From NCBI RefSeq assembly GCF_002855575.1, contig NZ_PKRQ01000001.1, forward strand, positions 620,001 to 684,000: 64,000 nt of DNA, written 5' to 3'. The translations under genes were made by a program, and so were the position numbers. Positions 1,010 to 9,906 of this stretch are shown piece after piece. Origin of the DNA: Tabrizicola sp. TH137. Lineage in GTDB: Bacteria; Pseudomonadota; Alphaproteobacteria; Rhodobacterales; Rhodobacteraceae. Numbering within the stretch: the stretch's first letter is position 1; the number at the start of each line of letters is the position of its first letter. The notes beneath the pieces are model-generated. The model saw only the letters and a list, made by a program, of their open reading frames with translations. It ran no database searches and had not been told where the DNA came from.

Positions 1010-2089
1010 ATGCGCGCGGCCTTCCGCGCCGATGGCGCCGCCTACATGGGCGGGGGGCACATCATGCGCTGCCTGGCGCTGGCCAATGCACTGTCGGCGC
1101 GGGGCGCATCCTGCCATTTAATCGCCCGTCATCTGACCGATGCGCTGGCGGGCCGCATTCGCAGCGCAGGGCATGACTTGACACTGCTCCCCCCACGACC
1201 CCATTCTGTGGAAACCGGCCCGCTGGCCCCGGCACATGCCGATTGGCTCGGCACCTTCTGGGCTGACGACGCGGCTGACAGCGCCGCCGCTCTCGGCCCC
1301 GGCTGCGACTGGCTGATCGTCGATCACTATGCCCTCGATGCCCGCTGGCACGCCGCGCTTCGCCCGAAAGCCCGGCGTATCCTCGTCATCGACGATCTCG
1401 CCGACCGCCCCCTCGCATGCGACGCGCTGCTTGATCCGAACTATCGACGCCCCGGCGAGGATCCCTTCGCAGAACGCGTTCCCCCGGAATGCCACCGCTT
1501 CTCCAGCCCCCAGATGGCGCTTCTCGATCCGGCCTTCGCCGCCGCCCATGCCCGCGCCCGCGTGAGGACCAGCGCCCGCCACGCCTTCCTCTATCTCGGC
1601 ACCGCGACAGCCGACCACCATCTTCCCGTCCTCGACGCGCTGGCCGCAACCGACCTCACCGCCGACCTCGTCAGCAGCGCAACCGTCATCACCGACAGCC
1701 GCCTGACCACCCATCCCGCCATCCGCTCCGGTCGCATCCGGTTGCACGGCCCCCAACCCTCCCTCCTCCCCTTCATGGAACGCGCCGACCTTGCCATCGG
1801 GCCCATTGGCTCCAGCACATGGGAAAGGTTCGCTATGGCCCTTCCCACCCTCGCCGTAACCATAGCGACCAATCAGGAGCGGATCGCCCACGACCTTGCC
1901 ACCGACCGTCTGACCCTACTCCTCGGTAGGCTGGACAGCGTCACCGCCGCCACCGCCAGCGCCGCACTGACCGCCCTGATGTCCCCCGACATGCTGGTCG
2001 ACATGTCCCGGCGCACCCACGCCCTCTGCGACGGTCGCGGCGCAGCCCGGCTTGCCGATGCTCTTGTTGCAGGCACCCCCACCGATTAA
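1010..2089 (+). CDS. pseG: PseG-like UDP-sugar hydrolase (nonulosonate pathway)
   Basis: 359 residues. It begins with FRADG..MGGGHIMRCLALA, the N-terminal glycine-rich/histidine motif of PseG, the GT-B-fold hydrolase that removes UDP from UDP-2,4-diacetamido-2,4,6-trideoxy-L-altrose. The C-terminal half has a nucleotide-binding GPIGSSTWERFA segment typical of PseG/SpsG proteins. It starts 5 bases after the aminotransferase stop and is followed within about 700-2700 bases by metallophosphoesterase, ATP-grasp and PseI-like genes. Pseudaminic acid is the most likely product of the pathway, but a legionaminic-type or other variant nonulosonate cannot be excluded from this gene alone. Confidence 0.8.
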   Translation: MRAAFRADGAAYMGGGHIMRCLALANALSARGASCHLIARHLTDALAGRIRSAGHDLTLLPPRPHSVETGPLAPAHADWLGTFWADDAADSAAALGPGCDWLIVDHYALDARWHAALRPKARRILVIDDLADRPLACDALLDPNYRRPGEDPFAERVPPECHRFSSPQMALLDPAFAAAHARARVRTSARHAFLYLGTATADHHLPVLDALAATDLTADLVSSATVITDSRLTTHPAIRSGRIRLHGPQPSLLPFMERADLAIGPIGSSTWERFAMALPTLAVTIATNQERIAHDLATDRLTLLLGRLDSVTAATASAALTALMSPDMLVDMSRRTHALCDGRGAARLADALVAGTPTD

Positions 2090-3756: not shown

Positions 3757-4712
3757 CAACTGTTTTCATCACAGCCATCGGCGGCGATGTCGCCCAAGGC
3801 GTGGCCCGCGTGATCCGCGAGGCGCGGCCAGACTGGCGCATCGTCGGTTCTGACATCGGCGATCGACACGCCGGGGGCCATTTCGTCGACCGCCTGCTAC
3901 TCGCCCCCGCAGCCAACGATCCGGCTTATCCCAACTGGCTCGCCGACCGTTTGGCTGAAGAGCGAGCCGAGTTCTGCATCCCTATGAATGAGGCCGAGAT
4001 TGCTCGTCTCGTGACCCTTCCATCAACCCTTCCCTCCAGTACCCGGCTTGTCACTGCCGGGGCCGCTGCGGTGACCGTCGCGGGCGACAAGGTGGAGACT
4101 GCCCGCTTTCTGTCTCACATCGGCCTTCCGGCCCCATGGGTGGCCGAAGGCATCGAAGATATCCCGACAGACGGGCTGCCATGCATCTGCAAGCCGCGCT
4201 CTGGGGCAGGCTCGCGGTCCGTTTATGTCTGCACGACTTTGGACGAGGCGCGCTTTCTCGCACAGCGCCATCCCGGCGCGATGTTTCAGGAACTCCTCTT
4301 GCCCGACGACGCCGAGGTGACGGTGGCAGTCTTCCGCGACGCCAAAGGTCGCACGGCGCTGCTGCAAATGCAGCGGCGGCTTTTCGGCGGGGCCACCGGC
4401 TGGGCCGAGGTGATCGACGACCCAGCGGTGACCAAACAATGTCACAGTATCGCCGAAGCCCTCGGCCTGCGCGGCGCGCTCAACGTGCAGTTGCGCCGAA
4501 CTGCGCATGGCCCCCGCGTCTTCGAAATCAACGCCCGCTTCTCCTCCACTGCGCTAATGCGGCACCGTCTTGGTTTTTCCGACGTAATCTGGACGCTGGA
4601 TGATCTCGACGGCCTCCCAGTAGTGGTGACCGCACCCGCACCGGGTCAGCGCATCGCGCGCATTCAGGACGCCGTGATCCTTCCCCCGGCCCTTTTCGAA
4701 AGCACGACATGA
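3753..4712 (+). CDS. ATP-grasp domain enzyme
   Basis: 319 residues. The N-terminal pre-ATP-grasp fold opens with VFITAIGGDVAQGVARVI. A central ATP-grasp region has CICKPRSGAGSRSVY (glycine-rich loop with ATP-contacting lysine), FQELL, and a C-terminal FEINARFSS metal-binding element (E and N). It resembles carbamoyl-phosphate-synthase-like ligases found in capsule, flagellin-glycan and nonulosonate clusters. It overlaps both neighbours by 4 bases (ATGA), indicating translational coupling with the metallophosphoesterase and PseI-like genes. A ligase that adds an amino-acid or acyl group to the sugar is inferred; the substrates are unknown. Confidence 0.8.
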   Translation: MTTVFITAIGGDVAQGVARVIREARPDWRIVGSDIGDRHAGGHFVDRLLLAPAANDPAYPNWLADRLAEERAEFCIPMNEAEIARLVTLPSTLPSSTRLVTAGAAAVTVAGDKVETARFLSHIGLPAPWVAEGIEDIPTDGLPCICKPRSGAGSRSVYVCTTLDEARFLAQRHPGAMFQELLLPDDAEVTVAVFRDAKGRTALLQMQRRLFGGATGWAEVIDDPAVTKQCHSIAEALGLRGALNVQLRRTAHGPRVFEINARFSSTALMRHRLGFSDVIWTLDDLDGLPVVVTAPAPGQRIARIQDAVILPPALFESTT

Positions 4713-5758
4713 CCATCACCATCGGCCCCCATTCCATCGGCCCCGGACACCGCCCCTTCATCATCGCCGAGATGTCGGGAAACCATAACCAGTCGCTCGA
4801 CCGTGCGCTGGCCATTGTCGATGCCGCCGCCGCCGCAGGGGCGCAGGCGCTGAAGCTGCAAACCTATACCGCCGACACGATCACCCTCGACGTGCGCGGC
4901 GGCGCGTTCGACATTTCCGATGCGGGCAGCCTCTGGAAGGGCCGCAACCTGCATGATCTCTACCGCGAAGCCTCCACCCCCTGGGACTGGCACGCCCCGA
5001 TCATGGACCGCGCCCGCAGCCACGGCATGGCCTGCTTCAGTTCGCCCTTCGACGAGACGGCCGTCGATTTCCTCGAATCCCTCGACGTGCCCGCCTACAA
5101 GATCGCCTCCTTCGAAAACATCCACCTTCCCCTGATCCGCAAGGCCGCCGCCACCGGCAAGCCGCTCATCATGTCCACCGGCATGGCCAGCCTCGCCGAA
5201 CTGGACGAAGCCGTCACCGCCGCCCGTCAGGCCGGGTGCCGCGACCTGATCCTGCTGAAGTGCACCTCCACCTATCCGGCGACCCCGGCCAATACCAACA
5301 TCGCCACCATCCCCAACATGCGCGATGTCTTCGGCTGCCAAATCGGCCTGTCGGATCATACGATGGGCGTGGGCGTGGCCGTCGCCGCCGTGGCACTGGG
5401 GGCGACGGTGGTGGAGAAACACTTCACCCTTTCCCGCGCCGATGGTGGCGTGGACAGCACCTTCTCGCTCGAACCTGCCGAACTGGCGGCGCTGGTCACG
5501 GAAACCGAACGCGCCTGGCAGTCGCTCGGCCAGATCACCTACGGCCCGACCGAGGCCGAGAAGAAATCGCTGGTCTTCCGCCGCTCCATCTACGTGGCCG
5601 AAGACATGAAGGCGGGCGACATCTTCGACAGCCGCAACCTCCGCATTGTGCGGCCGGGATTGGGCCTGCCGCCGAAACTGATCGACAGCCTCCTCGGCAA
5701 GCGCATCACCCGCGACGCCCCCAAGGGCACGCCGCTGGCCTGGGACCTGATCGGATGA
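4709..5758 (+). CDS. pseI: PseI/NeuB-family nonulosonate synthase
   Basis: 349 residues. The NeuB-type TIM barrel (about 1-275) carries FIIAEMSGNHNQ, QALKLQTY, YKIASFE, STGMAS, LKCTSTYP, GLSDHT and VEKHFTL, and is followed by a C-terminal SAF domain (about 285-345). The segment LWKGRNLHDLYREASTPWDWH is the form seen in pseudaminic acid synthase rather than NeuB proper. The enzyme condenses phosphoenolpyruvate with a 6-deoxy-diacetamido hexose to make the 9-carbon acid. It overlaps the genes on both sides by 4 bases. With PseG upstream and a GNAT gene downstream, it anchors the call of a pseudaminic-acid-type pathway. Confidence 0.88.
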   Translation: MTITIGPHSIGPGHRPFIIAEMSGNHNQSLDRALAIVDAAAAAGAQALKLQTYTADTITLDVRGGAFDISDAGSLWKGRNLHDLYREASTPWDWHAPIMDRARSHGMACFSSPFDETAVDFLESLDVPAYKIASFENIHLPLIRKAAATGKPLIMSTGMASLAELDEAVTAARQAGCRDLILLKCTSTYPATPANTNIATIPNMRDVFGCQIGLSDHTMGVGVAVAAVALGATVVEKHFTLSRADGGVDSTFSLEPAELAALVTETERAWQSLGQITYGPTEAEKKSLVFRRSIYVAEDMKAGDIFDSRNLRIVRPGLGLPPKLIDSLLGKRITRDAPKGTPLAWDLIG

Positions 5759-6291
5759 CGGGCGGCCCCTGGGCGGATGTCCGCATCCGCTCCACCCGGT
5801 TCGACCTGCGCCCGATCACCGAAACCGATGTGACACCGCGCTATCTCGGCTGGTTCGCCAGCCGCGGCGCAAGCAACATCACCCAGCATCCCGCCTCGCT
5901 CGACGATCTGCGCACCTATGTCCGCGACAGGTCGGATCGCACCGACATCCTCTTCCTCGCCATCCGCAGCGCCGACACCGGCCAGCATATCGGCAACCTC
6001 AAGCTGGAACCGATCGACAGGGCACTCAGCGGGGCCATCCTCGGCATCTTCATCGGGGAAGAAGCCTGGCATGGCAAAGGTGTCGCCACGGAAACCATAG
6101 GCGCGACGGCGCAGTGGCTTCAGGCCGAACTCGGCCTCCGCCACCTCTGGCTGGGCGTGACGGAAGACAACCATGCCGCCCGCCGCGCCTATGAAAAATC
6201 GGGTTTCGTCCTTGCCCCCTGCCCCCTGATCCCTGCCCGCCCCGGCATCCTGACCATGGCGCTGGACCTTGTGCCGCAAAAGCGCGCATGA
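5755..6291 (+). CDS. GNAT acetyltransferase, possibly PseH-like
   Basis: 178 residues from ATG 5755, which overlaps the pseI stop by 4 bases; the open frame extends far upstream inside pseI but that part is a shadow. RimJ/RimL-type GNAT fold: L.PITETD, a central strand ILGIFIGE, the acetyl-CoA loop HGKGVATE, and the ending NHAARRAYEKSGF. PseH acetylates the C4 amine of UDP-4-amino-sugar in the pseudaminate pathway, and the position next to pseI fits. The alternative is N- or O-acylation of a different amino sugar. Members of this family are hard to separate by motif alone. Confidence 0.75.
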   Translation: MTGGPWADVRIRSTRFDLRPITETDVTPRYLGWFASRGASNITQHPASLDDLRTYVRDRSDRTDILFLAIRSADTGQHIGNLKLEPIDRALSGAILGIFIGEEAWHGKGVATETIGATAQWLQAELGLRHLWLGVTEDNHAARRAYEKSGFVLAPCPLIPARPGILTMALDLVPQKRA

Positions 6292-6378: not shown

Positions 6379-7263
6379 GTGACCACGGACAAGATCGTCG
6401 AAGTCGGCTATGGCAAAGTGGCCCGCGTCCGCATCGGCAAGGGGCTGCCCCTCGCCTATATCGGCGGTCCCTGCGCCATCGAGTCGCGCGACCACACCTT
6501 CCGCATGGCCGAAGCCATCGGCGAAATCTGCCGCAAGCTCGACATGCCCTGGATCTTCAAGGCCTGCTACGACAAGGACTGCCGCTCCGCCGCCGACAGC
6601 TTCCACGGCGTCGGCCTGGAAGAAGGGCTTCGCATCCTCGCCGATGTGCGCGATGCCTTCGGCGTGCCCGTCGTGTCGGACTTCTCCGATCCCGCCTGGG
6701 GCCCCGCCACGGGCGAGGTCTGCGATCTGGTGCAGGTCCCCGCCTATCTCTGCCGCCAGACCTCGGTCCTGCGCGCGGCGGCCAAGACCGGGCGCCCCGT
6801 GCATCTGAAGAAGGGGCAGTTCATGTCCCCCTGGAACATGAAGAACTCCGTCCGCAAGCTGGAATCCTTCGGCTGCGTGGGGACGATCCTCGCCGACCGC
6901 GGCACCTTCTTCGGCTACAACATGCTGGTCAACGACATGACCTGCTTCCCGATCATGGCCCGCACCGGCTGCCCGGTCTGCTTCGACGCCACCCATTCGA
7001 TCCAGATGCCCACCTCCATGGGCAATGTCTCGGGCGGCCAGCGCGAATTCATCCCCGCCCTGGTCCGCGCCGCCGTGGCCTGCGGCATCCAGGCGCTGTT
7101 CATGGAAACCCATGACAACCCGCCCAAGGCCCTGTCCGACCCCAACACCGTTCTGGACCTGAAGCATCTGGAATTCGTCCTCGCCCAGGCCAAGCGCGTG
7201 CACGAAACCCGGCTCAGCCTCCTTCAGGAATTCGGAGAAGACAATGTCCACACCGGCCACTGA
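6379..7263 (+). CDS. kdsA: KdsA-family 3-deoxy-ulosonate phosphate synthase, divergent paralogue
   Basis: 294 residues with a GTG start at 6379, preceded by a strong GGAGGAA site. The family condenses phosphoenolpyruvate with arabinose 5-phosphate to Kdo-8-phosphate. All four ligands of the metal-dependent class are visible: C32 in GGPCAIES, H206 in DATHS, E243 in FMETH and D254 in KALSD, as in Aquifex KdsA. The hallmark KANRSS loop is instead KDCRSA (residues 66-71), and the conserved D-[VI]-H-E segment is DFSDP (101-105). These are substrate-contact regions, so the aldose acceptor may differ from arabinose 5-phosphate. It overlaps the CBS gene by 20 bases. Family assignment is firm; the exact reaction is not. 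Confidence 0.82.
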   Translation: MTTDKIVEVGYGKVARVRIGKGLPLAYIGGPCAIESRDHTFRMAEAIGEICRKLDMPWIFKACYDKDCRSAADSFHGVGLEEGLRILADVRDAFGVPVVSDFSDPAWGPATGEVCDLVQVPAYLCRQTSVLRAAAKTGRPVHLKKGQFMSPWNMKNSVRKLESFGCVGTILADRGTFFGYNMLVNDMTCFPIMARTGCPVCFDATHSIQMPTSMGNVSGGQREFIPALVRAAVACGIQALFMETHDNPPKALSDPNTVLDLKHLEFVLAQAKRVHETRLSLLQEFGEDNVHTGH

Positions 7264-7675
7264 GTCCCGCCGCGTCGCCGATGTCGCGCTCGGGCTCGAC
7301 CGCTTCCCCGTCCTGCGCCCGAACGACCTGCTCAAGACCGCGCTGGAGCAGATGACAGCCAAACGGCTCGGCATCGTCTGCATCACCGATGAGGCGGGCC
7401 AGCTTCAGGGCATCTTCACCGACGGCGATATCCGCCGCCATCTGCTGACCGTGCAACGCCCCTTCGCCGCCTTCTTCTCGGACGACATCATCGACCATGC
7501 CCAGCGCAAGCCGACGACCGTCTCGGGAGAAAGCTCCCTGCGCGAGGCGCTCGACATCATGGCCCGCCTCCAGATCTGGGACCTTCCCGTCGTCGATGGC
7601 AGCGGCCGCCTGATCGGCCTGCTCCACCTTCATCCTCTGGTCGAGGCGGTGCTTGCCGCCCCCGGCCGCGCCTGA
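7244..7675 (+). CDS. Stand-alone CBS-pair protein (KpsF/KdsD C-terminus-like)
   Basis: 143 residues forming two CBS motifs (about 20-75 and 85-140). The first ends in QGIFTDGDIRRHL, the second in IWDLPVVDGSGRLIGLLHLH, closely resembling the CBS tail of arabinose-5-phosphate isomerases (KdsD/KpsF). The SIS isomerase domain that normally precedes it is absent, and the start at 7244 inside the end of kdsA leaves no room for one. GGAG precedes the start. Likely a regulatory nucleotide- or sugar-phosphate-binding subunit for the neighbouring synthase or for a separate SIS protein; this role is inference. Confidence 0.8.
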   Translation: MSTPATESRRVADVALGLDRFPVLRPNDLLKTALEQMTAKRLGIVCITDEAGQLQGIFTDGDIRRHLLTVQRPFAAFFSDDIIDHAQRKPTTVSGESSLREALDIMARLQIWDLPVVDGSGRLIGLLHLHPLVEAVLAAPGRA

Positions 7676-7716: not shown

Positions 7717-8658
7717 ATGCTGAACGAAGCGCTTGAAGTCCTCGGCCGCCTTGGCCGCTCCGCCGATGCCGCCCGCATCGCCGCCGACGAAACCCGGCAA
7801 AAGCTCGACCATCTCCGCGAACATGGCTATGTGATCTTCGATCATCTGGTCGGGACAGAGCGTCTCGCCAAGTTGCAGGCGGATTACCGCGACCGGCTGG
7901 AAACCCGGCTGGACTTCGACACGCCGACCCTCGCCCAGTCCAAGATCGACCCGCAGCGAGACGCCGACCTGATCAAGTCGAACTTCTTCGGCACCCCGGC
8001 GCAACTCGCCGCCCGCGGCCTGACCTTCGACAAGGGCGACATCCAGTCCTATGAACAGGCCGTCCGCGATTTCCGTCCCTCCACCCTCACCACCCGGATG
8101 CCGGACACGGCAGAATGGTTCGGCCTCTGGCTCGATCCCCGGATGCTGCCAGTCATCGAAGGCTATCTCGGCTTCGTCCCCGTTCTGGAAGAGGCCTTCA
8201 TCCGCCGCAACTACCCCTCGGATTTCGTGGTCATGAACCACGCCTGGCATCGTGACACGAACCACAGCCGCCACCTGCTCAAGGCCTTCTTCTTCCTCAA
8301 CGACTGCACCCTCAGCAATGGGCCTCACCATTACATCGCCGGCACCGTGCAGGACCGCCGCCTCGATGGCGGCCGCTACTTCAGCGAAGAGGAAGTGCGC
8401 GCGCTCTACCCTGCCGGTTCTGCCCGCGACATCATCAGCGTGGTGCCCGCCGGCACGATCATCCTCGAAGATACGCGCGGGCTGCACAAGGCGGGCATCC
8501 CCGAGGAAGGCTATCGCGACCTCGGCTTCGCCACCTTTCTGCCGCCCATCGCGCTGCGCCGCCGTCCGGCGCTCTACCGCATGTCGCGCGGCACCTATGC
8601 CGGCCTTTCCGAGGAACAGCGCCGCTACATCCCGCCGCAGGTCGTCCCCGCCTCCTAG
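7717..8658 (+). CDS. Phytanoyl-CoA dioxygenase (PhyH) family protein
   Basis: 313 residues; AGGAG lies 9 bases before the start. A 2-oxoglutarate/Fe(II) dioxygenase of the PhyH superfamily. The iron ligands appear as H178-x-D180 in WHRDTN and H257 in RGLHKAG, with the double-stranded beta-helix between them. An N-terminal helical stretch (about 1-60) includes HLREHGYVIFDHLV, the usual PhyH opening. In a sugar-biosynthesis neighbourhood it may hydroxylate a sugar, lipid or glycan component, possibly making the 3-hydroxy form of a Kdo-like sugar as KdoO enzymes do; the substrate cannot be told from sequence. It is 41 bases after the CBS gene in the same direction. Confidence 0.8.
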   Translation: MLNEALEVLGRLGRSADAARIAADETRQKLDHLREHGYVIFDHLVGTERLAKLQADYRDRLETRLDFDTPTLAQSKIDPQRDADLIKSNFFGTPAQLAARGLTFDKGDIQSYEQAVRDFRPSTLTTRMPDTAEWFGLWLDPRMLPVIEGYLGFVPVLEEAFIRRNYPSDFVVMNHAWHRDTNHSRHLLKAFFFLNDCTLSNGPHHYIAGTVQDRRLDGGRYFSEEEVRALYPAGSARDIISVVPAGTIILEDTRGLHKAGIPEEGYRDLGFATFLPPIALRRRPALYRMSRGTYAGLSEEQRRYIPPQVVPAS

Positions 8659-8681: not shown

Positions 8682-9026
8682 ATGGCAGGCAACCTCTTCA
8701 ACCGACTGGCACGCCGCTTCGCACGGATCACTTTCCCGTTCTTCGAACGCGCGCTCAACCTGCACGTCCCCCCGAACGACTACTCTTCGCCGATCCCCTC
8801 CGTGAAGGACCTGCCTCCCGACATCTTCGACCGCCACATCGGCCTTTCGGGGATCGACATGAACGAGGGCGGGCAGTCGGCCCTGCTCCGGGATGTGCTG
8901 CCCCTCTACCTTGCCGAATTCACGCCACAGCCGAATGCCGGGCTCTCCCTTGCCGAAACCCGGCCCTTCCTGCAACCCGGCCACCGCCTGACCTCGTTCT
9001 GGGCGGAACGGAAACCCACTCGGTAG
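8682..9026 (+). pseudogene. Truncated N-terminal fragment of a SAM methyltransferase
   Basis: 114 codons. Residues about 20-75 (FFERALNLHVPPNDYSSPIP, then DRHIGLSGIDMNEGGQ) match the N-terminal lead-in of a family of ~250-residue class I methyltransferases in glycan loci. The methyltransferase fold itself, including the glycine-rich SAM motif, is missing: after LAEFTPQP the sequence drifts into unrelated residues and stops at 9026. The next gene is an intact but different (FkbM) methyltransferase. This looks like a remnant left by deletion or replacement. It could still be translated as a short protein. The resemblance comes from memory of the family. Confidence 0.6.
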
Positions 9027-9036
9027 AATCCTGAAC

Positions 9037-9906
9037 ATGCGTCAACTGCTCCGAAGCATCCTCATGCTTGTGCCGACAGTGCTTCTCGGCACGCTTCGCC
9101 TCTACAGTCTGGCACTGTCGAAGCTTACCGGACGGGACTTTGCGATGATGGTTCGTGAGAGGATCATGGACGAGGCCGTTGCTCAAAAACAAACCGCATC
9201 GCACGTAAACGGGTCCGGCAGCAGCGTCGATCTGATCATCCACACGCCAAACAGCATGTGCAAGATGCGCGCGGACACTTTTTCAACCAAAGAGCCGGAA
9301 ATCTTGCGCTGGATCGACAGCCGGGGGGGCGCAGGCACCTTCTGGGATATCGGCGCGAATGTGGGGCTGTATTCACTATACTATGCCAAGACGCATCCCG
9401 GCCGGGTCGTATGCTTTGAACCATCGGTCTTCAACCTGCGCCAACTAGCCAAGAACATTTCGGTGAACGGCCTATCCCAGAAGATCGACGTCGTTCCCTT
9501 CGCATTGTCCGACCGGCAGGGCTTCCAATCCTTCCGCCTGTCCAGCGAAACCGAAGGCGGTGCATTGAACGCCTTCGGGGTCGATTATGGTTTCGACGGC
9601 AAGAAGATCGCTTCCCTGGTCGAGTACCGCACTTTCGGAATGTCAGCGGACCAACTGGTTTCCCTCTCACTGATTGAAGGTATTCCCTCCATGATCAAGA
9701 TTGACGTGGACGGGATCGAACACCTCATTCTTTCGGGAATGACGACGGTTCTCGCGCATCCCGACTGCCAATCCGTCTATGTCGAAGTCAACGAAGGCTT
9801 CAGCGAACAGGCTGACCAGGTGAACGATGTTCTCGGACGTTCGGGTTTCAGGCTCGTGGAGCGTACGCGGGAAGAGTTCACCAGCAATCAGATATGGGTC
9901 AAGTGA
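9037..9906 (+). CDS. FkbM family methyltransferase
   Basis: 289 residues. An N-terminal hydrophobic stretch (about 8-28) may be a membrane anchor. The SAM site FWDIGANVGLYSLYY lies near residue 107, followed by VVCFEPSVFNLRQLAKNI and the IKIDVDGIEHLIL motif typical of FkbM proteins. These usually O-methylate sugars in polysaccharides or natural products. Base use differs from its neighbours: codons are less GC-biased, with runs such as AAAAACAAACC and TTTTTC, suggesting acquisition from elsewhere. It begins 10 bases after the truncated methyltransferase and probably closes the sugar locus. Confidence 0.82.
   Translation: MRQLLRSILMLVPTVLLGTLRLYSLALSKLTGRDFAMMVRERIMDEAVAQKQTASHVNGSGSSVDLIIHTPNSMCKMRADTFSTKEPEILRWIDSRGGAGTFWDIGANVGLYSLYYAKTHPGRVVCFEPSVFNLRQLAKNISVNGLSQKIDVVPFALSDRQGFQSFRLSSETEGGALNAFGVDYGFDGKKIASLVEYRTFGMSADQLVSLSLIEGIPSMIKIDVDGIEHLILSGMTTVLAHPDCQSVYVEVNEGFSEQADQVNDVLGRSGFRLVERTREEFTSNQIWVK

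Follow-up and report, generated by a model that had tools for sequence, protein, structure and literature searches.

Though the gene at positions 6379 to 7263 of the window (the whole stretch of 64,000 nucleotides from Tabrizicola sp. TH137 that was analysed) encodes a KdsA-like protein, the motifs that define KdsA are altered in it, which raises the question of whether this protein, P0001, makes the same product as KdsA or a different one. A sequence-only reading had taken it for a paralogue making another 3-deoxy-ulosonic acid, and had set it beside a pse-type locus, an orphan CBS protein and a PhyH dioxygenase. The genes concerned are as follows, with bit scores and cut-offs in brackets:

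1010 to 2089, forward strand: PseG-type UDP-sugar hydrolase, not core (TIGR03590, 188.6 against 153.55)
4709 to 5758, forward strand: PseI-type nonulosonic acid synthase, not core (TIGR03586, 493.7 against 340.25)
5755 to 6291, forward strand: GNAT acetyltransferase, weakly PseH-like, not core (TIGR03585, 27.0 against 93.1)
6379 to 7263, forward strand: KdsA-like synthase P0001 of the KDCRSS/DFS subfamily (NCBIfam KdsA models, fold, alignment and tree)
7244 to 7675, forward strand: CBS-pair protein lacking a SIS domain, its gene sharing 20 nt with that of the synthase (Pfam CBS, 65.6)
7717 to 8658, forward strand: PhyH-like protein, cluster c20, a variable tailoring gene (Pfam PhyH, 20.9 against 22)
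9037 to 9906, forward strand: FkbM-type methyltransferase, cluster c14, a variable tailoring gene (Pfam Methyltransf_21, 33.3 against 22.7)

Active-site residues of the synthase

P0001 has 294 residues, with a GTG start at 6379 preceded by ggagga and a stop at 7263. Its frame, coordinates and motifs, as first described, were all borne out when the sequence was read again, with KDCRSA at residues 66–71 in place of KANRSS and DFSDP at 101–105 in place of D[VI]H. It passes PRK05198 (330.2, cut-off 242) and, narrowly, the KdsA equivalog model TIGR01362 (318.2, cut-off 314), below which some of its relatives fall (306–313 bits); with PRK12457 it scores 257.7, below the cut-off of 457. The structure model is a (beta/alpha)8 fold with a mean pLDDT of 90.1, the beta7–alpha7 loop (211–220) being the sole part below 50, and its best fold matches are KdsA structures, with TM-scores of 0.80–0.88 by query length to the listed KdsA chains. 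We rejected a reading of P0001 as a type I-beta DAHP synthase (109.6 bits against a cut-off of 335, with the DAHP-type rows L164 and L165 distant in the tree), and no NeuB model is among its profile matches.

Residues C32, H206, E243 and D254 align with Cys11, His185, Glu222 and Asp233 of A. aeolicus KdsA (PDB ID: 1fwn), which we take to be the metal ligands of that enzyme. Positions 66–70, 101–103 and 126 align with A. aeolicus 46–50, 81–83 and 106, sites that in KdsA are taken to hold the acceptor and PEP. The metal ligand types Cys, His, Glu and Asp are given in an excerpt of PMC3052366, and for the N. meningitidis enzyme an excerpt of PMC6650799 describes contacts of Asn57 and Arg58 with intermediate mimics, as well as the importance of loop L7 for binding arabinose 5-phosphate.

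We aligned 77 subfamily proteins with 72 canonical ones, the two groups being set by percent identity with P0001 (58% or more against 40–58%) and not by motif. Every subfamily protein has Cys at position 63, Asp at 67, Ser at 103 and Tyr at 123 (77/77 each), where every canonical protein has Ser, Ala, His and Phe (72/72 each). Position 68 is Cys in 72 of the 77, Ser in four and Gly in one, against Asn in all 72, and the beta7–alpha7 loop has Thr212-Ser213 throughout the subfamily (77/77) where the canonical proteins have Gly-Gly (71/72 and 70/72). The usual subfamily motif is KDCRSS, Ala71 of P0001 being a minority form (9/77), and DFS gives way to DYS once and to DIS once. Invariant in both groups are C32, K61, K66, R69, D101, R126, K144, R174, H206, E243 and D254, the metal-binding Cys, His, Glu and Asp being present in 77/77 subfamily proteins at each position. 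The motif changes of P0001 are thus no local drift; they are fixed across its relatives.

Five rows were dropped from this alignment, namely L051 (on the same contig as the copy of genome G154, which was kept as L004), L103 (internal stop), L111 (split frame), L113 (gene cut by the contig start) and L112 (truncated, residues 9–178 alone matching though 10 kb follow). A further six rows, below 40% identity, were treated separately: L160, L161 and L162, which share the canonical Ala, Asn, His and Phe at 67, 68, 103 and 123; L164 and L165, low scorers taken as DAHP-type; and L089, a spurious row left out of the tree. All 72 canonical proteins belong to the Cys (metal) class, Asn at position 32 occurring in L162 alone.

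When the positions that discriminate the two groups are placed on the model, 16 of 22 lie in beta–alpha loops on the catalytic face, where 8.0 would be expected (p 0.0003, with strands taken from the structure model). By distance along the sequence, 17 of the 22 are within six residues of catalytic residues (p 0.011) and 10 within three (p 0.083), both weaker signals than the loop test. The first reading, that acceptor-side motifs are altered while metal ligands are kept, is confirmed over the 77 and 72 sequences, and the PEP ligands prove to be unchanged as well; Arg69, Ser70 and Arg126 are probably the phosphate-binding residues and are also kept. Compared with metal-dependent KdsA (PDB IDs: 1fwn, A. 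aeolicus; 3fs2, Brucella), the subfamily shares the fold, the metal and PEP ligands and the phosphate-binding Arg and Ser, but has KD[C/S/G]RS[S/A] for KANRSS, DFS for D[VI]H, PAY for PAF and Thr-Ser for the beta7–alpha7 Gly-Gly, besides forming a separate clade and having a CBS partner that nearly always adjoins.

Distribution and the Kdo genes of the hosts

When 84,980 species genomes were scanned by pattern, at least 80 loci encoding a relative were found, from 102 stretches; 79 belong to this type, whole or in pieces, and one (L109) is canonical by motif. By record title the 79 loci spread over ten phyla (Pseudomonadota 53, Bacteroidota 10, Cyanobacteriota 8, Nitrospirota 2 and one in each of six others), and these phyla are intermixed in the synthase tree, which argues for transfer between lineages, with the proviso that bins may be misassigned. 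The 77 subfamily proteins form one clade (SH-aLRT 100) on a stem of 1.07 changes per site; the tree was made by a quick method from 154 rows, and the join of the clade to a single canonical row, L156, is a long-branch placement not to be trusted. Within the window's family, 27 of 394 genomes match at E 1e-80 or better; three carry this type, namely the window's own and two whose copies are 96% and 74% identical, and the 24 others have proteins of 47–52% identity that are canonical by motif. In a sample of 150 genomes from the phylum, 139 match TIGR01362 at 1e-40, and five genomes of the sample have a copy of at least 372 bits plus a second at 309–330 bits, the range of this type; one is the window's genome, three coincide in contig position with the genomes of L086, L088 and L098, and the fifth is G443.

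The proposal of a paralogue had been made to depend on a second kdsA in the genome, and such a copy exists: a canonical KdsA is encoded at G000:C22:372489–373238, 47% identical to P0001 and with the motifs KANRTS and TDIHD. The proposal is thus supported in part, P0001 falling within a separate KdsA-like clade and the same genome having a canonical kdsA.

A phage or plasmid origin of the subfamily was considered and rejected, since all phage (4/4) and plasmid (37/37) records with a match are below 60% identity and a pattern-based scan of viral contigs found no relative. The cyanophage Synechococcus phage S-SCSM2R has genes annotated KdsA and KdsB (L186:2980–4401), its KdsA being canonical (KANRSS, DVHE). 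The gene order pyrG-kdsA-eno is typical of bacterial chromosomes, and the match in a record titled Acinetobacter phage MD-2021a (L187) lies within this order, so that the record probably holds bacterial DNA. A 16-kb plasmid of Bacillus velezensis (H17; NZ_CP061939.1, 6043–6840) carries a kdsA relative 47% identical to P0001, unexpected in a Gram-positive species and perhaps a contaminant.

We ran TIGR01362 on 80 genomes and searched 37 for KdsD, 29 in which only this synthase type had been found and eight others; G609 and G614 (this type only, the G614 copy being truncated) lay outside the KdsD search. All 37 match the CBS part of KdsD, and 14 have a full KdsD over the cut-off. Among the 29 genomes with this type only, KdsD is over the cut-off in eight, and 21 have the CBS-type match alone. 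Most loci come from MAGs or SAGs, which may be incomplete, so that single absences of KdsA or KdsD are weak evidence.

In Prochlorococcus, canonical KdsA and full KdsD were looked for in eight genomes, mostly single-cell by record title, and neither was found in any (8/8), a result that gaps can hardly explain. Each has at most one KdsB-type match, and six of the eight have one. The models do detect cyanobacterial genes, since the control Synechococcus elongatus is over the cut-offs for KdsA and KdsB; it matches KdsD at E 1e-12, and of the six genomes matching there three are over the cut-off. A search for the Kdo transferase PF04413 was positive in 17 of 38 genomes and gave no match in the eight Prochlorococcus, a weak negative because S. 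elongatus, which has KdsA and KdsB, is also without a match, so that a missing transferase says little about cyanobacteria.

These results bear on the alternative that P0001 is a Kdo 8-phosphate synthase isozyme, carrying out the same arabinose 5-phosphate reaction for capsule or O-antigen Kdo with a KdsB and a CBS regulator of its own, which we consider rather unlikely. The KdsA-like fold and the kept PEP ligands are consistent with it, and several further findings count against a different acceptor: the score of P0001 is over the equivalog cut-off, if narrowly, the probable phosphate-binding residues are kept, and KdsD is present in 8 of the 29 genomes with this type only and in the window's own (C11:1040007–1040804). 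Against an isozyme, the canonical Asn68 and His103 occur in none of the 77 subfamily proteins but in all 72 canonical ones, and 21 of the 29 genomes lack a KdsD over the cut-off. Retention of the metal, PEP and phosphate ligands suggests that the reaction follows KdsA chemistry, and the altered acceptor residues, along with the missing KdsD, speak for a different acceptor.

The cassette around the synthase

The gene neighbourhood was surveyed by tblastn with reference proteins at 80 loci (the 79 and the window; L051 lies on the contig of G154). Seventy-eight of these loci extend at least 500 bases downstream of the synthase, and in 76 of them a CBS gene on the same strand begins inside that interval. 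The two exceptions are L112, where the synthase copy is truncated, and L110, whose CBS gene belongs to the same cluster but sits 3.2 kb upstream. The window's CBS protein, first described as an orphan, is a genuine CBS protein by its Pfam score but no orphan, being the fixed partner of the synthase. It matches the C-terminal part of KpsF/KdsD alone (kpsF from about 155 to 268), and its nearest solved chain, of 130 residues, is named arabinose 5-phosphate isomerase (PDB ID: 4o9k). We take 4o9k to be a CBS pair with CMP-Kdo, and by analogy propose the CBS protein as a candidate CMP-sugar sensor of the synthase. The arabinose 5-phosphate isomerase KdsD/KpsF is described in an excerpt of PMC10448790 as a SIS domain plus a CBS pair; the cassette protein resembles its CBS tail, but the SIS isomerase domain, and hence the isomerase active site, is absent. 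The partnership also bears on whether P0001 is a catalytically dead or drifting paralogue, which seems to us very improbable: the KdsA-defining motifs are altered and other genomes hold broken copies (L103, L111, L112), whereas every metal and PEP ligand is present in 77/77, the changed residues are themselves fixed, and the CBS partner is kept.

Within 10.5 kb of the synthase, the 80 loci have CBS in 78, a KdsB-like gene in 65, HpcH in 45, SDRa in 43, SDRb in 37, c5 in 33 and a KdsC-like gene in 18, counts that are lower bounds, as many contigs end within that distance. In the window's genome the remaining cassette genes, among them a second SDR and a c5 gene, lie about 25 kb upstream of the synthase:

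C11:598340–599131: HpcH aldolase
C11:599083–599904: SDR
G000:C11:600713–601435: KdsB-like CMP-transferase
C11:602965–603489: KdsC-like phosphatase

The cassette CMP-transferases match KdsB (CMP-Kdo synthetase), those scored lying around or below curated cut-offs, and the L035 copy has 1gq9 as its best solved chain. They differ from KdsB in that 53 of 67 cassette rows, including that of the window's genome, form a clade of their own (group A); the other 14 (group B) lie near canonical KdsB, which fits a product close to Kdo and is also consistent with an isozyme. A 68th row labelled as cassette, L057_6085, is the canonical KdsB of that genome. An excerpt of PMC3149649 gives Asp95 and Asp219 as ligands of Mg-A in A. 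aeolicus KdsB. The position of Asp95, as we placed it on the alignment, is kept in 86/86 rows, and position 219 is Asn in 51/53 of group A (two gaps), 1/14 of group B and 4/19 canonical KdsB, the last of which weakens the change from Asp to Asn as a diagnostic of the KdsB-like clade. The four canonical proteins with Asn at this site (L176, L177, L178 and L181) group together in the KdsB tree, and three are from the window's family.

The c5 protein has no Pfam or NCBIfam match at 0.001. Its model (pLDDT 89.6) matches GT-B-fold enzymes with E down to 1.7e-10 and TM of about 0.37–0.47 by query length, the matches being glycosyltransferases mixed with UDP-GlcNAc 2-epimerases, with a polysialyltransferase at rank 26; our guess is that c5 is the transferase of the new sugar. 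In HpcH, at least 97% of 41 sequences keep E52, H53, R78, Q154, E156 and D182, which presumably match the known catalytic residues, so that the cassette HpcH is probably a working aldolase.

The frequency of HpcH and the SDRs near the synthase, and the kept putative catalytic residues of HpcH, would agree with an acceptor made inside the cassette, the aldolase and SDRs either building or epimerising the aldose for the synthase or reworking its product. We regard this as improbable; short cassettes made up of synthase, CBS and KdsB-like genes exist with no HpcH nearby (for instance L063, L068 and L087), so the aldolase is dispensable beside the synthase. In loci of Rhodospirillales type (L083, L087, L092, L095 and L102) the short cassette is followed by radical SAM (c21) and TPR (c23) proteins, perhaps another tailoring route. 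A PFTS-motif polysaccharide protein (c13; L035:5073–6728 and relatives) also recurs beside the cassette, the L035 copy scoring 299.6 with TIGR04417 against a cut-off of 100.

The other neighbours named in the sequence-only reading lie outside the conserved core. The pse-type genes are real but variable neighbours, matched by TIGR03586 and TIGR03590, and their presence suggests a nonulosonic acid in the same glycan. PseI/NeuB pathways make CMP-ulosonic acids through PEP condensation; PseI itself, which ends 620 bases upstream of P0001, belongs to another synthase family. The PhyH assignment holds as a likeness, the score being just below the Pfam cut-off, and cluster c20 is variable, found in 9/81 loci by a clustering that missed genes in GC-rich loci, where long antisense frames won. 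At 8682–9026, just before the FkbM gene at 9037, the window has a 114-residue ORF that looks truncated, a relative in G369 (L032:2701–3558) having 286 residues.

A proposed pathway and its meaning

The subfamily is real, well conserved and undescribed within the literature searched, and no paper on this cassette was found in the open-access literature searched. P0001 falls outside KdsA in the strict sense, as two motif tests fail, and yet most likely works like KdsA. On the sequence evidence we lean towards a stand-alone CMP-ulosonic-acid pathway, in which the synthase would join PEP to a phosphorylated aldose other than the arabinose 5-phosphate made by KdsD.

P0001 would be the entry enzyme of this horizontally mobile pathway, leading to a CMP-activated 3-deoxy-2-ulosonic acid destined for surface polysaccharide. 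As the conserved ligands suggest, it would add PEP to the aldose phosphate at a KdsA-like, metal-dependent (beta/alpha)8 site. The acceptor side is rebuilt (Ala-Asn becomes Asp-Cys at 67–68, Ser103 replaces His, Tyr123 replaces Phe and Thr-Ser replaces Gly-Gly in the beta7–alpha7 loop), so that in place of arabinose 5-phosphate the enzyme probably accepts some aldose phosphate whose supply does not depend on KdsD. Our guess at the best fit would be ribose 5-phosphate, because it needs no isomerase; the product would then be 5-epi-Kdo 8-phosphate (D-altro or D-allo configuration). The KdsC-like phosphatase would strip the phosphate and the KdsB-like enzyme would then make the CMP-sugar, which the CBS protein, resembling the tail of KdsD, would sense so as to control the synthase; c5 may be the transferase, and in the long form of the cassette HpcH and the two SDRs would tailor the sugar or its acceptor.

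A more specific proposal, possible if on balance doubtful, is that the product is an undescribed octulosonic acid, a Kdo epimer whose precursor is ribose 5-phosphate or some other common aldose phosphate, with no arabinose 5-phosphate isomerase and with feedback through a detached CBS sensor, and that it is a widespread surface sugar in the ocean. The CBS protein would be a clean case for studying CMP-sugar feedback uncoupled from the isomerase. Because P0001 and many of its relatives pass KdsA models, the gene may be scored as kdsA when Kdo and LPS are predicted for marine bacteria. According to an excerpt of PMC11247762, Pelagibacter genomes differ in the genes assigned to KDO synthesis, and one might guess that some of these are this cassette. 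If the proposal is true, a Kdo-epimer sugar, its gene now read as kdsA, would be widespread in ocean bacteria (Prochlorococcus, SAR11, SAR116 and Flavobacteria by record titles) and in other phyla. A distinct CMP-ulosonic acid pathway common to Prochlorococcus, SAR11 and Bacteroidota would mean a new surface building block met by phages and grazers.
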